The notes beneath the pieces are model-generated. The model did not search any database. It was not told the DNA's origin and was given only the letters and a program-made list of their open reading frames with translations. From Chryseobacterium sp. R2A-55 (GTDB taxonomy: Bacteria; Bacteroidota; Bacteroidia; Flavobacteriales; Weeksellaceae), in NCBI RefSeq assembly GCF_021401085.1, contig NZ_JACBFP010000005.1:124001-188000 (forward strand): DNA of 64,000 nt, in the 5' to 3' direction. Positions 1,151 to 41,351 of this stretch are shown here, one piece after another. Positions within the stretch are counted from its first letter, which is position 1; every line of letters begins with the position of its first letter. The position numbers and the translations under genes were made by a program.

Positions 1151-1699
1151 TCAGAGTTGCACTTTCACCTTAAATCCGGTATTCAGCTTCATCCGAATGA
1201 TATCGGTAGAGGGATAGCTCGCCATGATTTCCATGATGAGCGAGTTTTGATTGGTCCTGAAGTAATCCAGCAGTTCCGCATCGTTGGATGAGAATGTGAT
1301 GGAGTTTGGGTTGGTGTTATTTTGTACACTGGCAATCAATTTTTCCGGCAGATTGGGCGATTTGATGTAAAGATTTGCGTTTTTGATGACATCAAGTTTG
1401 TTGCCCAGCTGAGAACTCACATATTCCACCGTAATAGCATTAAGCTTAACTGATTTCAAATTATTGATTGAAAAATTTGAATTTTGAGCTTTAATCTGCG
1501 CATCAAGGTCAATGTTCATATTCATTTCCGGAGAACGCGTATAAGAAGTGGTGCTTACCGCAGCAAACGGAACCTCAATAGTGGTTGAAAAAGGTGCGTC
1601 AAATGGTGGCAGCACATCTAAAACAGCATTTACAATATCTCTGCAGCTACCCATTAACAATAGGAAAATTATTCCGGTGATGAGTGATAATTTTTTCAT
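1151..1699 (-). CDS. Putative lipoprotein of unknown function
   Basis: The 182-residue protein starts with a typical lipoprotein signal: MKK, a hydrophobic stretch, then the lipobox LMGSC with the lipidated cysteine at residue 19. It should be cut by signal peptidase II and anchored in the membrane. The remainder is beta-rich and contains no motif I recognise. The region around residues 60-100 (alternating N, S, I, V, L) suggests an immunoglobulin-like or LEA-like beta sandwich, but this is only an impression. It is monocistronic and convergent with its left neighbour. Confidence 0.7.
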   Translation of the reverse strand: MKKLSLITGIIFLLLMGSCRDIVNAVLDVLPPFDAPFSTTIEVPFAAVSTTSYTRSPEMNMNIDLDAQIKAQNSNFSINNLKSVKLNAITVEYVSSQLGNKLDVIKNANLYIKSPNLPEKLIASVQNNTNPNSITFSSNDAELLDYFRTNQNSLIMEIMASYPSTDIIRMKLNTGFKVKVQL

Positions 1700-1990
1700 T
1701 TTTCAATATTTTACTTTTTTAGCATTGCATTAATTGTTCCAAATTAGAAAATCGATGTATTTTATTTCAATCAATATTTCCGTTGATTCTAAGAAAAACC
1801 TTGCTATTTTAATTTGGTTTTTGGTCTTCTCTCTTCTGAATTTCCCACTTTATTCCTTCGGTTTTTTGACCAAATACGAATCAAAAAAAATCGGATCCGC
1901 ATAGGATGACCTATTTCAATACAGACGATTTCAGTAATGATCACACGATTAGAAATACCCGAACTGCCTTCTTTAATGACAAGACAGCTC

Positions 1991-37854: not shown

Positions 37855-39258
37855 ATGAGTCAATTCGATGTTACCGTCATCGGTTCCGGTCCAGGTGGTT
37901 ATGTGGCGGCAATCAGAGCAGCGCAGTTGGGCTTCAAAACTGCCATTATCGAGAAATATCCTACTATGGGAGGAACTTGTCTTAATGTGGGATGCATCCC
38001 TTCAAAAGCACTTTTGGACAGTTCCGAGCATTTCGAGAATGCCAAACACAATTTTGCCAACCACGGAATCATCATCAACGAGCCGAAAGCTGATTTGGGC
38101 AGAATGGTGGAGCGAAAAAATGAAGTCGTGGACCAAACCACCAAAGGAATCAAATTCCTGATGGACAAAAACAAGATTACCGTTTTCGAAGGAGTGGGAA
38201 GTTTTGAATCTCCAACTCAGGTAAAAGTGACAAAGAATGAAGGTTCCACCGAAGTTCTTGATTCCAAATACATCATCATCGCAACGGGTTCCAAACCATC
38301 CAATTTGCCGTTCATAACTTTAGATAAAGAAAGAGTAATCACTTCTACAGAAGCGTTAAACTTAAAGGAAATCCCGAAAAAGCTTCTGGTAATCGGAGGT
38401 GGCGTCATCGGATTGGAACTGGGTTCCGTTTATTTGAGATTGGGTGCAGAAGTAACGGTGATCGAATTTATGGACAAAATCATTCCCGGAATGGATGGCG
38501 CGTTGTCTAAAGAATTGCAGAAAGTCCTGAGAAAACAGGGAATGAAATTCGAACTTTCTACCGCAGTTTCGGCTGTGGAGAGAAATGGAGACACCGTGAA
38601 AGTGACCGCTAAGAACAAAAAAGGAGAAGAAGTTACATTTGAAGGAGATTATTGCTTGGTTTCTGTAGGAAGAAAACCTTATACAGATGGACTTTCCCTT
38701 GAAAAAGCAGGAGTGGATATGGACGAAAGAGGTAGAGTGAAAGTAAACGAGCACCTTCAAACCAATGTTTCCAATATTTACGCAATCGGTGATGTAATTC
38801 AAGGCGCGATGCTGGCTCACAAAGCTTCAGAAGAAGGAATTTTGGTCGCTGAACAACTGGCAGGTCAGAAACCACACATCAATTACAACCTAATTCCGGG
38901 AGTAGTTTATACTTGGCCAGAAGTTGCCGGAGTGGGAAAAACCGAAGAGCAACTGAAAGCTGAAGGAATAGCGATAAAAGTTGGAAATTTCCCGATGAGA
39001 GCTTTGGGAAGGAGCCGTGCTTCAGGTGATTTGGATGGTTTCATCAAAATCATTGCGGACGAAAAAACCGACGAAATCCTGGGAATGCACATGATTGGAG
39101 CAAGAGCGGCGGATTTGATCGCAGAAGCCGTGGTAGCAATGGAATACAGAGCAAGTGCAGAAGATCTCGCGAGAATGTCTCACGCACACCCAACCTATGC
39201 AGAAGCGGTGAAAGAAGCAGCTTTGGATGCGACTGGTAAAATTGCCATTCACTTTTAG
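37855..39258 (+). CDS. lpdA: Dihydrolipoyl dehydrogenase (E3)
   Basis: This FAD disulfide reductase of 467 residues reoxidises lipoamide in 2-oxoacid dehydrogenase complexes and the glycine cleavage system. The FAD motif GSGPGGYVAAIRAAQLG starts at residue 10, the redox pair C42/C47 is in GGTCLNVGCIPSK, the NAD motif is VIGGGVIGLELGSVYLRLG near 180, and the C-terminal HAHPTYAEA holds the catalytic His-Glu pair. No E1 or E2 gene adjoins it, so it is probably the shared E3. A terminator hairpin follows at 39314. Confidence 0.96.
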   Translation: MSQFDVTVIGSGPGGYVAAIRAAQLGFKTAIIEKYPTMGGTCLNVGCIPSKALLDSSEHFENAKHNFANHGIIINEPKADLGRMVERKNEVVDQTTKGIKFLMDKNKITVFEGVGSFESPTQVKVTKNEGSTEVLDSKYIIIATGSKPSNLPFITLDKERVITSTEALNLKEIPKKLLVIGGGVIGLELGSVYLRLGAEVTVIEFMDKIIPGMDGALSKELQKVLRKQGMKFELSTAVSAVERNGDTVKVTAKNKKGEEVTFEGDYCLVSVGRKPYTDGLSLEKAGVDMDERGRVKVNEHLQTNVSNIYAIGDVIQGAMLAHKASEEGILVAEQLAGQKPHINYNLIPGVVYTWPEVAGVGKTEEQLKAEGIAIKVGNFPMRALGRSRASGDLDGFIKIIADEKTDEILGMHMIGARAADLIAEAVVAMEYRASAEDLARMSHAHPTYAEAVKEAALDATGKIAIHF

Positions 39259-39301: not shown

Positions 39302-39337
39302 GATTTTATAAATAAAGAGAAGTTTCGGCTTCTCTTT
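39302..39337 (+). repeat. Direct repeat, copy 1 (36 bp), including a terminator
   Basis: This copy is identical over 36 bases to 39881-39916. It starts with the last bases of a DUF2442-type gene (codons ATT TTA TAA) and runs through the hairpin that follows such a gene. Here it sits after lpdA. Confidence 0.9.
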
Positions 39338-39342
39338 TTATT
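39314..39342 (+). terminator. Terminator after lpdA
   Basis: AAAGAGAAG (39314-39322), loop TTTCGG, CTTCTCTTT (39329-39337), then T and A. A nine-base perfect stem, identical to the second copy at 39893. Confidence 0.85.
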
Positions 39343-39375
39343 TCAAAATCATTAACTTAGCACAAATAAAGAAGC

Positions 39376-39633
39376 ATGCCGGAAATAAGTCGATTTTACG
39401 GAATCATTATTCAGATGTTTTTCAAAGATCATAATCCGCCGCATTTCCATATAACTTATGGAGAATATCGTGCGGTGATGACGATCGAAAATGGAATAGT
39501 GGAGGGAAATATGACTTCGAAGGCATTAAAATTGGTGTTTGAATGGATGGAACTTCATCAAGATGAATTAATGAAAAATTGGGAGCTTGCCCAAAAAGGA
39601 GAGTTACCAAAAGCTATAGAACCTCTAAAATAA
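39376..39633 (+). CDS. DUF4160 domain-containing protein
   Basis: The protein has 85 residues, full length for DUF4160. The family signature is complete: PEISRFYGIIIQMFFKDHNP, then PPHFHITYGEYRAV (with the conserved H-x-H), a central GNMTSKAL, and the helix EWMELHQDELMKNWELA. The family is widespread and often next to DUF2442, as here, with a gap of two bases implying one transcript. Biochemical function is unknown; a toxin-antitoxin-like role has been suspected from size and pairing but cannot be shown from sequence. The cassette is bounded by an exact 36-bp repeat. Confidence 0.88.
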   Translation: MPEISRFYGIIIQMFFKDHNPPHFHITYGEYRAVMTIENGIVEGNMTSKALKLVFEWMELHQDELMKNWELAQKGELPKAIEPLK

Positions 39634-39635
39634 TT

Positions 39636-39890
39636 ATGATGAGTTTAATTTGGGTTACAAAAGCAGAATACATTTCAGAATACAAGATTAGTCTTACCTT
39701 TAACACAGGCGAAGAAATAATTGTAAATCTGGAGAAATATCTGGATAAAGGGATTTTTTTAGAACTGAAAAACAAAGATTATTTCAAAAGTTTTAAGCTC
39801 AATTCCTGGACAATAGAATGGGAAAACGGGGCAGATTTTTCCCCGGAGTTCTTATATTCGTTAAAATCTGACAAAGAATTGATTTTATAA
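39636..39890 (+). CDS. DUF2442 domain-containing protein, copy 1
   Basis: The 84-residue protein starts MMSLIWVTKAEYISEYK, two bases after the DUF4160 stop. VNLEKYLDKG in the middle and the C-terminal WENGADFSPEFLY match DUF2442, which pairs with DUF4160. The frame can be extended 19 codons into the DUF4160 gene, but that part is not family-like. A paralogue is at 39976. The last codons (ATT TTA TAA) lie within the 36-bp direct repeat. Confidence 0.88.
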   Translation: MMSLIWVTKAEYISEYKISLTFNTGEEIIVNLEKYLDKGIFLELKNKDYFKSFKLNSWTIEWENGADFSPEFLYSLKSDKELIL

Positions 39891-39916
39891 ATAAAGAGAA
39901 GTTTCGGCTTCTCTTT
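39881..39916 (+). repeat. Direct repeat, copy 2 (36 bp)
   Basis: Identical to 39302-39337. It covers the stop of the first DUF2442 gene and its terminator. The two copies bound a 579-bp unit. Confidence 0.9.
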
Positions 39917-39925
39917 GTTTTTCCC
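39893..39925 (+). terminator. Terminator after the DUF4160-DUF2442 pair
   Basis: AAAGAGAAG (39893-39901), loop TTTCGG, CTTCTCTTT (39908-39916), then a T-rich tail. The hairpin is the same as after lpdA. Confidence 0.85.
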
Positions 39926-39975
39926 GGAATTCGGTCTTTTTATGGCTAACTTTGAATACCTAAAAAGTAAAAGAC

Positions 39976-40230
39976 ATGAATAATATTAAAGTAACTAAAG
40001 CCAGCTATATTTCTGACTACACTGTAAATCTGGTATTTAGCACCAACGAAAAAATGACCGTAAACCTTCAACGATTTATTGAAAAACCAGAATTTTCTGC
40101 ATTAAAAGGCCAAGAAGTTTTCAAAGACTTTAGGATTGAAGATGGGAATTTGGTCTGGGAAAACGGAGCTCATTTCGCGGCGGAATTCCTCTACGGATTG
40201 CCGAATGAAACTGAGTTGAGTTGTTCGTGA
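39976..40230 (+). CDS. DUF2442 domain-containing protein, copy 2
   Basis: The protein has 84 residues and is clearly paralogous to the gene at 39636. They share VTKA-YIS-Y at the start, VNL in the middle and WENGA-F-EFLY at the end, but differ at most other positions, so the split is old. It has no DUF4160 partner of its own. It is transcribed in the same direction, separated by a terminator. Function is unknown. Confidence 0.88.
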   Translation: MNNIKVTKASYISDYTVNLVFSTNEKMTVNLQRFIEKPEFSALKGQEVFKDFRIEDGNLVWENGAHFAAEFLYGLPNETELSCS

Positions 40231-40272: not shown

Positions 40273-40476
40273 TCAAACAATGAGCCGCTCTTTATACCTG
40301 AATTTTCCCTTAATAAATCGATTGAGGAAACTTCCTTTTGAAAACGCTGACCTGAAATTTTCAAAAGTATAGAGCGGAACCTGGAAATAGTCGTAAACTT
40401 TCCCTGAAACAAACATGATCGTGAGAATCATTTGTTCCGTGTTGTAAGAATATTTTTTGACAACATTTGATGGCAT
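40273..40476 (-). CDS. KTSC domain-containing protein
   Basis: The protein has 67 residues. VKKYSYNTEQMILTIMFVSGKVYDYFQVP followed by FSKGSFLNRFIKGKFRY (quoted in parts) is the KTSC domain pattern, named for its Lys-Thr-Ser-Cys positions; here the KTSC-equivalent serine-glycine turn is SKGS. The domain is found alone or fused to RNA-related proteins in bacteria and phages; function is unknown. The chosen start MPSNVVKKY is family-like; the frame continues 25 codons upstream into the promoter and start of the divergent gene, which is unlikely to be translated. Confidence 0.75.
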   Translation of the reverse strand: MPSNVVKKYSYNTEQMILTIMFVSGKVYDYFQVPLYTFENFRSAFSKGSFLNRFIKGKFRYKERLIV

Positions 40477-40526: not shown

Positions 40527-41351
40527 ATGAATATAGGCAGAACCCAAACATTAAAGATTCACGAGCACAATTCTTCAGGTTTTATCCTGGTTGACGAAAA
40601 TGAGGAAAAGGCATTTCTTCCAAAAATTTTCGCTTCCGAAAACTCATTGATCGGTGATGAAATTGAAGTTTTTGTTTATCAGGACGATGACAAATTAAAG
40701 GCGACCACCGAAAAACCTAATGCCGAAGTAGGGGAGTTTGCGGTGATGAGCTGCGTTCAGACTTTGCCGAGCGGAGCATTTATGGATTGGGGAATCATCA
40801 AAGATCTGTTTATTCCATATACCCAACAGAAACTGAAAATCCAGGAAGGGAAAAGATATCTGGTCTATGTTTATGTGGACGAAAAAACAGGACTGATTAC
40901 CGGAACCACCAAATTTAAGCGGAATCCGCAATACACTGATCTGCCTTTTAAAAGTGGTGATAAAGTAGATTTGATTTTGATGGGCGAAAGCGAACTCGGC
41001 TGGAATGTGGTCATCAACAAAGAATATATCGGACTGATTTATGCGTCAGACGTTTACAAGAAACTTTATCCATTGTCCCAAGAAATCGGCTATATCAAAA
41101 CCATCCGCGAAGATGGTAAAATTGATGTGACTTTGCAGCCGGAAGGATTTGCCCATATTGACGAATTCCAAAAAATCATTCTGGAAAAACTAAATGAAAA
41201 TTATGGTTTGCTTTATCTTTCAGATAAATCTTCGCCGGAGGAAATCAAGGACGAATTGCAGATGAGCAAAAAGAACTTCAAGAAAGCAATCGGCGGACTT
41301 TATAAGGACAAAAAGATTGAAATTCTGGAGGATAAGATCAGGTTATTATAA
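40527..41351 (+). CDS. CvfB-like S1 RNA-binding protein
   Basis: The protein has 274 residues in the CvfB/YitL family: tandem S1-like OB folds followed by a small winged helix. GAFMDWGIIKDLFIPYTQQ near residue 85 is the family's S1 strand pair, LGWNVVINKEYIGLIYASDV near 160 is the next repeat, and LYLSDKSSPEEIKDELQMSKKNFKKAIG at 225-255 is the winged helix. In Staphylococcus CvfB binds RNA and affects virulence genes; here it is a general RNA-binding regulator. The start MNIGRTQTLKI is preferred over the frame's first ATG at 40467. Confidence 0.9.
   Translation: MNIGRTQTLKIHEHNSSGFILVDENEEKAFLPKIFASENSLIGDEIEVFVYQDDDKLKATTEKPNAEVGEFAVMSCVQTLPSGAFMDWGIIKDLFIPYTQQKLKIQEGKRYLVYVYVDEKTGLITGTTKFKRNPQYTDLPFKSGDKVDLILMGESELGWNVVINKEYIGLIYASDVYKKLYPLSQEIGYIKTIREDGKIDVTLQPEGFAHIDEFQKIILEKLNENYGLLYLSDKSSPEEIKDELQMSKKNFKKAIGGLYKDKKIEILEDKIRLL

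Follow-up and report, generated by a model that had tools for sequence, protein, structure and literature searches.

Introduction

The DUF4160 and DUF2442 domains meet in two described toxin-antitoxin modules, the closest known counterparts of the gene pair analysed here. In Dickeya and E. coli, DhiT toxicity is reported to be relieved by DhiA, overproduction of DhiT inhibiting growth and co-expression with DhiA not doing so (PMC8198452). In Thermus, a plasmid carrying the DUF4160 gene but lacking the DUF2442 gene yielded no transformants, and E. coli tolerated both single-ORF deletions of the Thermus pair, so that toxicity may depend on the host (PMC12724237).

In this study, we have analysed a window of 64,000 nucleotides (the whole stretch of DNA under study) from Chryseobacterium sp. 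R2A-55, the genome of which (G000) was compared within a set of 36 genomes of the genus and with other genomes of the family. Twenty-two of the latter were hand-picked, in part because they had numerous stem sites or DhiT matches, and the rates found in them are therefore biased; within set limits cvfB was found in 17 of these and lpdA in 20, and the 16 in which both lie close together were all used. The probable toxin-antitoxin pair of the window is of an already known kind; the unusual part is the variable, terminator-bounded locus in which it lies.

Results

Two exact copies of a 36-bp repeat, in direct orientation and 579 bp apart from start to start, bound a unit holding a DUF4160 gene and a DUF2442 gene, and a second DUF2442 gene follows (Table 1). 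An earlier note on this DNA had described this layout; its repeat coordinates proved exact, and Pfam confirmed all three of its domain assignments. No match to the 36-nt repeat arose in 100 dinucleotide shuffles, even with three mismatches allowed, and the 20-bp core, at up to two mismatches, has two sites in the whole 2.93-Mb genome, both of them these copies. In the sister species G011, the repeat is exact over 43 bp. The copies of G000 and G011 share 12 nt of upstream flank, and those of G011 a further 7 nt downstream.

TABLE 1. Features of the lpdA-cvfB interval and its borders (positions in the window)
Feature	Position	Strand	Evidence
lpdA-type dihydrolipoyl dehydrogenase, left border	37855..39258	+	Pfam Pyr_redox_2/Pyr_redox_dim
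Repeat copy 1, predicted lpdA terminator with 12 nt of upstream flank	39302..39337 (hairpin 39314-39337)	+	
TAACTTAG, resembling the -7 promoter element	39353..39360	+	By-eye motif match only
DUF4160 protein (85 aa), DhiT-like toxin candidate	39376..39633	+	Pfam, 77.5 bits (cut-off 23)
DUF2442 protein (84 aa), DhiA-like antitoxin candidate	39636..39890	+	Pfam, 51 bits (cut-off 23.9)
Repeat copy 2, most likely a copied lpdA terminator closing the DUF4160-DUF2442 unit	39881..39916 (hairpin 39893-39916)	+	
TAACTTTG, exact match to the -7 element, 5' of the lone DUF2442 gene	39947..39954	+	By-eye motif match only
Second, lone DUF2442 gene, orphan antitoxin-like	39976..40230	+	Pfam, 36.2 bits
KTSC-domain gene, convergent neighbour inside the interval	40273..40476	-	Pfam, 64.6 bits
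cvfB-type S1/winged-helix gene, right border	40527..41351	+	Pfam CvfB_WH, S1_2

In each copy, a T-rich tract comes directly behind a perfect hairpin, AAAGAGAAG-TTTCGG-CTTCTCTTT, and RNA folding gave -10.9 kcal/mol (z of -3.5 versus shuffles) for copy 1 and -15.1 kcal/mol (z of -4.8) for copy 2. A consensus terminator scan found copy 1 and missed copy 2, the T run of which is interrupted by G; its total for the region, 2 sites versus 1.6 expected by chance, is no excess, and we therefore base the assignment on folding and on conservation after lpdA rather than on the scan. With a stable G+C-containing hairpin and a T run just 3' of a gene, the repeat looks like an intrinsic terminator, at which transcription would be expected to end. 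The control for duplication covered 329,061 bases of the genome (the window and 20 further stretches), in which 59 terminator-like hairpins form 17 same-strand pairs less than 4 kb apart; only one of these pairs, that at lpdA, has identical arms. The duplicated repeat at this locus is real and beyond chance. Elsewhere in the window, terminator-like hairpins at 321 and 41378, 41 kb apart, have 15 of 16 arm bases in common (AACGGAC stem).

The two copies differ in their likely history. A hairpin of this type (at most 4 mismatches in 24) begins 23 to 190 bp past the lpdA stop codon in 32 of the 36 genus genomes (the exceptions are G013, G016, G024, and G032, of which the last three have other hairpins there), which identifies copy 1 as the terminator of lpdA itself. 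In G002, the lpdA terminator is preceded by ATTTTATAAA, as are both copies in G000, and the DhiA ends of G278, G279, and G284 differ and lack ATTTTATAAA; this argues that copy 2 was derived from copy 1. Most likely, copy 2 was copied from copy 1 together with its 12-nt upstream flank, and this lpdA-type flank replaced the end of a DhiA-like gene, now providing its last codons and stop. The earlier note had proposed the opposite polarity, with copy 1, now behind lpdA, as a remnant left by recombination or duplication of a DUF2442 unit, on the grounds that both copies hold the end of a DUF2442 frame. The letters of such a gene end are indeed present in both, and in copy 2 they do form the end and the stop codon, but in copy 1 they are the 3' flank of lpdA and are misleading. 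A leftover origin of copy 1 is extremely improbable, since the hairpin follows lpdA in those 32 genomes, whereas the pair occurs there only in G000 and G011, and since the ATTTTATAA flank common to the copies is lpdA-like in G002 and missing from the DhiA ends of other genera.

The two genes of the unit are separated by 2 nt, and the stop codon of the DhiA-like gene lies inside repeat copy 2. The -7 promoter consensus of Bacteroidota is TAnnTTTG, and an element like TAACTTAG precedes DhiT in G011, G278, G279, and G284. The genome contains one DUF4160 match and two DUF2442 matches, all at this locus. The best NCBIfam match of the DUF4160 protein is toxin_DhiT (NF048015), with 88.7 bits, under the cut-off of 100, and that of the paired DUF2442 protein is antitoxin_DhiA (NF048016), with 25.7 bits against a cut-off of 200 (positions 4 to 69 of 160); the lone DUF2442 protein scores 31.1 bits against the same antitoxin model and cut-off (positions 2 to 68 of 160). 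About the first 70 of the 160 model positions are matched, the C-terminal half of DhiA being absent from both DUF2442 proteins. Since the scores stay below the equivalog cut-offs, we refer to the pair as DhiTA-like, not as DhiTA proper. It does have the two hallmarks of the broader DUF4160/DUF2442 superfamily, a DUF4160 protein and an adjacent DUF2442 partner on the same strand, and is, as judged from its sequence, probably a toxin-antitoxin module of a known type, the DhiTA type, in keeping with the toxin-antitoxin character suggested for it earlier.

A same-strand DUF2442-like partner was present in 80 of 80 relatives (the best 80 of 577), downstream in 78 and upstream in 2, in an iterated search run without unrelated loci as a control; relatives also lie on 46 plasmid records and 5 phage records. 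The dN/dS values against G011 are 0.11 for DhiT, 0.11 for DhiA, and 0.08 for the lone DUF2442 gene, so that all three are apparently under purifying selection. The structure model of DhiT, built from an alignment of the window protein with 49 of the 80 loci (L197 was left out because it contains a stop codon, and the remaining 30 by choice), has a pLDDT of 95.4. A Foldseek search with this model returned no match at an E value of ≤0.001, its best VIA Z of 4.7 is inside the range of common arrangements, and sequence searches of solved structures gave weak, partial matches only. The invariant residues of DhiT include His19, His23, His61, and Trp69. PADLOC assigned no defence family to the DUF4160 protein or to either DUF2442 protein at E values up to 1, and a role as a known defence-system protein was rejected on this basis.

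The pair occupies the lpdA locus in 2 of the 36 genus genomes, G000 and G011, and weaker DUF4160 matches (in G002, a single one) lie elsewhere in two more, G002 and G026. The lone DUF2442 gene is found in the lpdA-cvfB interval of three (G000, G011, and G002), and TAACTTTG is identical in G011 and G002. The order in G002 is lpdA, one terminator, the lone DUF2442 gene without DhiT beside it, a KOW-motif gene, and cvfB, which is the empty site expected from exact insertion or removal of the 579-bp unit between terminator copies. The unit is therefore a true presence/absence module between close relatives, which agrees with the earlier proposal of a mobile or recombining unit, recombination being the probable route. 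The position of the KTSC gene, between the lone DUF2442 gene and cvfB, is taken by a KOW-motif gene in G002 and G284.

The surrounding interval is itself highly variable. All 36 genus genomes have cvfB, and in 35 it adjoins lpdA; in G035 a contig break divides the interval, which continues on a second contig, and the two genes are presumably linked. The interval measures 363 to 7,456 bp in 35 genus genomes and 69 to 10,930 bp over 51 genomes (35 of the genus and 16 others of the family). Its contents, mapped as ORFs of at least 55 aa with an ATG start in loose blastp clusters, in which genes may be missed, split, or merged, include units that we call X (DUF4476) and Y (T9SS-sorted, with a match just under the cut-off), a SUKH-type gene, the DhiTA-like pair, and others, among them c5, a small protein with a signal-like start and no Pfam match. 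The order of units varies as well, X-Y in G001 and Y-X in G004 and G007. We also observed, in the intervals at L098 (G025), L103 (G013), and L118 (G229), genes that we take by eye, from their sequence, to be TonB-receptor-like and PepSY-like.

Close copies of the terminator occur nowhere else in the genus than in this interval: the 20-bp core, with at most one mismatch, has 44 matches in 31 of the 36 genomes, all inside it. The cassette idea of the earlier note would have fallen with an arrangement fixed among relatives together with a terminator common at unrelated genes; it holds up, the arrangement being variable and the close copies in the genus locus-confined. The 36-mer as a common genome-wide terminator was rejected by the same figures, the core occurring only twice in the genome of the window. 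More relaxed scans used the hairpin with stem AGAGAAG/CTTCTCT (hereafter T, a shorthand for the terminator type). With any loop of 4 to 8 nt, 45 of the 86 genus sites that could be placed fall inside the interval, which makes up some 67 kb out of about 104 Mb, and 41 of 86 fall outside it, about one per genome; in the 16 other family genomes, 29 of 49 placed sites lie outside. Over 320 family genomes, the any-loop scan found at least one site in 252, so that the stem by itself is not exclusive to the locus, although in the genus it is strongly concentrated there, and convergence on a favoured stem may contribute to the distribution of T.

The position of T relative to genes was assessed in 52 family genomes, allowing one mismatch per arm. 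Of 75 forward ORFs of at least 80 aa, 26 have T no more than 160 bp 3' of them, whereas 2,000 runs of random intergenic placement gave a mean of 11.4 ORF ends and a maximum of 19. The 26 ORFs belong to seven clusters (c1, c3, c4, c5, c10, c14, and c17, of which c10, c14, and c17 are represented by one case each), and 27 of the 31 T copies other than that of lpdA follow a forward ORF. Among genus genomes, T follows X in 7 of 8 cases, Y in 4 of 5, and the paired DUF2442 gene in 2 of 2, and it follows none of the lone DUF2442 genes (0/3), the TonB/PepSY-like genes (0/4), or the forward ORFs without relatives (0/6). It is missing after 49 of the 75 forward ORFs, including all 10 that lack a relative in the set; some of these 49 lie inside operons. 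Of 28 reverse ORFs, none has T on the 5' side and 13 have it within 160 bp on the 3' side; the T copy of 12 of these 13 also follows a forward ORF or lpdA (convergent genes), and that of 1 does not.

Outside G000 and G011, the T copies of a given genome mostly have only the hairpin and T run in common, their loops and flanks being different, so that most copies are old and an origin by recombination is not directly visible in them. G006 and G007 have T copies at distances of 173 and 209 bp, and the sequence between them contains no forward ORF of at least 45 aa. Two kinds of further repeats were seen: (i) arrays of repeats of about 20 to 30 bp each, like CATTTCTGTAGGTTGCGGAAC, between the lpdA terminator and cvfB in L012, L013, L014, L015, L018, L019, and L092, either intergenic or as reading frames on their reverse strand; and (ii) short CACGAATGC- and GCATTCGTG-like repeats, possibly small repeat elements, adjoining terminator copies of several species in L090 (G006), L093, L096, L099, and L028.

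Close relatives of DhiTA also occupy the lpdA-cvfB interval of G284, G278, and G279, and T flanks or adjoins the lpdA-locus DhiTA in three genera: directly on both sides in G278, on the left in G279 (on the right only past one further gene), and on the right in G284, which has a variant AAGGAAG stem on the left. In G279 (L119 / L077), stop codons interrupt the DhiT frame, and the DhiA frame is open. Away from this interval T is rare: a DhiTA relative of G232 at another locus lacks it, it lies near 2 of 79 other DhiT loci (named-genome scan, from the best 80 of 577), and six further DUF4160 loci away from lpdA have it in one case (L005). The hairpin thus belongs mainly to the locus and not to the gene pair. 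In L080 (G284, 1251-1767) and L081 (G283, 1242-1767, reverse strand), DUF2442-like and DUF4160-like ORFs occur in reversed, overlapping order beside genes that by eye are nuoE-like and nuoF-like (complex I).

These comparisons bear on a possible, if somewhat unlikely, explanation by descent, according to which the ancestor of the family had a long interval made up of several units, all with similar terminators of their own, and different lineages lost units, the repeat being a relic maintained by selection for termination and recombination at it having no special role. A stem that is widespread, with loops that vary, in the genus and in 16 other family genomes is what old, selected terminators would show, and the identity of DhiT to its counterparts in G284 and G278 (80 and 73%) is like that of cvfB (80 and 77%). 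The flanks shared by the copies of G000 and G011 suggest copying instead of selection on the hairpin, however, and T is mostly missing from DhiTA outside the locus. Unit order also differs among species, and the DhiT of G284 is nearer to that of G278 (85%) than to that of G000 (80%), although DhiA does not follow this pattern (58 versus 61%). Vertical inheritance accompanied by numerous losses fits no less well than transfer.

Discussion

The explanation that we consider probable is that a toxin-antitoxin pair of known type sits in an exchange hotspot, where units are exchanged by recombination at copied terminators. The 579-bp unit would be a self-contained transcription unit, made up of a toxin candidate, an antitoxin candidate, and a copy of the lpdA terminator. 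In the hotspot, co-oriented units of unrelated genes often close with a copy of the lpdA hairpin, placing short direct repeats between neighbours, and recombination at these could have several outcomes: (i) deletion between two copies, (ii) insertion through a single crossover at one of the copies, or (iii) the overwriting of one copy by another. Units would thereby be added, removed, and reordered while the flanking core genes stay unbroken. We infer that such recombination would be of the RecA type or proceed by single-strand annealing between the short terminator repeats, and that the terminators may be kept by selection, each insulating its unit from its neighbours. An arriving unit could have gained its terminator if a circle that had been excised from this locus in a related strain or species was taken up by a single crossover, or alternatively by insertion between two pre-existing copies, an arrangement comparable to that in G006 and G007. 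As a working model, DhiT would slow growth through some target, and DhiA would bind and neutralise it; the lone DUF2442 gene could represent a spare antitoxin or one left over.

A further step would be to regard the lpdA terminator of the family as a recurrent docking site, at which unrelated small units, with toxin-antitoxin pairs being some of them, would be inserted, deleted, and reordered by recombination at the hairpin, each gaining its own copy. We consider this general form unlikely; if true, the locus would amount to a terminator-punctuated cassette array without an integron.

The layout also raises the question of whether a site-specific system devoted to this task, be it Xer-, integron-, or transposase-like, recognises the hairpin and moves units, in the way that integrons use attC hairpins. 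One hairpin type per unit, direct orientation, a single locus, and unrelated cargo do resemble a cassette array, and tyrosine recombinase-like matches exist elsewhere in the genome. Such a system is nevertheless very unlikely, given that none of 13 integron integrase matches in the genome exceeds the cut-off, that the interval of G000 holds only the pair, the lone DUF2442 gene, and the KTSC gene, and that a transposase-like ORF (by eye) in the interval of G003 has no T after it. Membership in an integron was rejected on the same integrase result.

What may be of wider interest is the locus, at which it can be tested whether terminators serve gene units as points of exchange. Within the genus, units of three unrelated kinds (X, Y, and the DhiTA-like pair) are followed by close copies of the lpdA terminator, which at that similarity occur at one chromosomal site only; the looser match extends this to seven ORF clusters in 52 family genomes. 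For a DhiTA-type pair, the locus moreover provides a natural series of presence and absence, to which the broken toxin frame of G279 and the lone antitoxin-like gene of G002 belong.

Compared with the DhiTA module of Dickeya dadantii 3937 (PMC8198452), the pair shares the DUF4160 toxin gene in first place, the DUF2442 antitoxin gene in second, and the near contact of the two, but has scores below the cut-offs and an 84-aa antitoxin that matches about 66 of 160 DhiA positions; the locus differs in that a lone second DUF2442 gene follows and terminator copies lie on both sides. With the 'Persistence Enhancing Module' of Thermus plasmids, the pair has in common the two domains, their order, and a short antitoxin (92 aa in Thermus), but that module (PMC12724237) resides on plasmids and stabilises them, whereas the pair here lies between two chromosomal core genes.

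In word searches of the literature for terminators acting as sites of insertion or recombination, none of the titles and abstract starts listed described terminator-bounded gene units of this kind. Integron gene cassettes consist of one gene unit and one hairpin in co-oriented arrays, and pdif modules carry toxin-antitoxin cargo between oppositely oriented sites at their two ends. Unlike integron cassettes (PMC3053210, PMC8876359), the locus is in a genome with no integron integrase above the cut-off, and its hairpin is a short perfect stem with a T-rich tract. The pdif (XerC/XerD) modules of Acinetobacter plasmids (PMC12907356, PMC6449649) are, like the unit here, small, marked by short repeated sites, and shuffled; in the case of the lpdA-cvfB interval, however, the site is a terminator hairpin, the repeats are direct, and they lie at one chromosomal locus.
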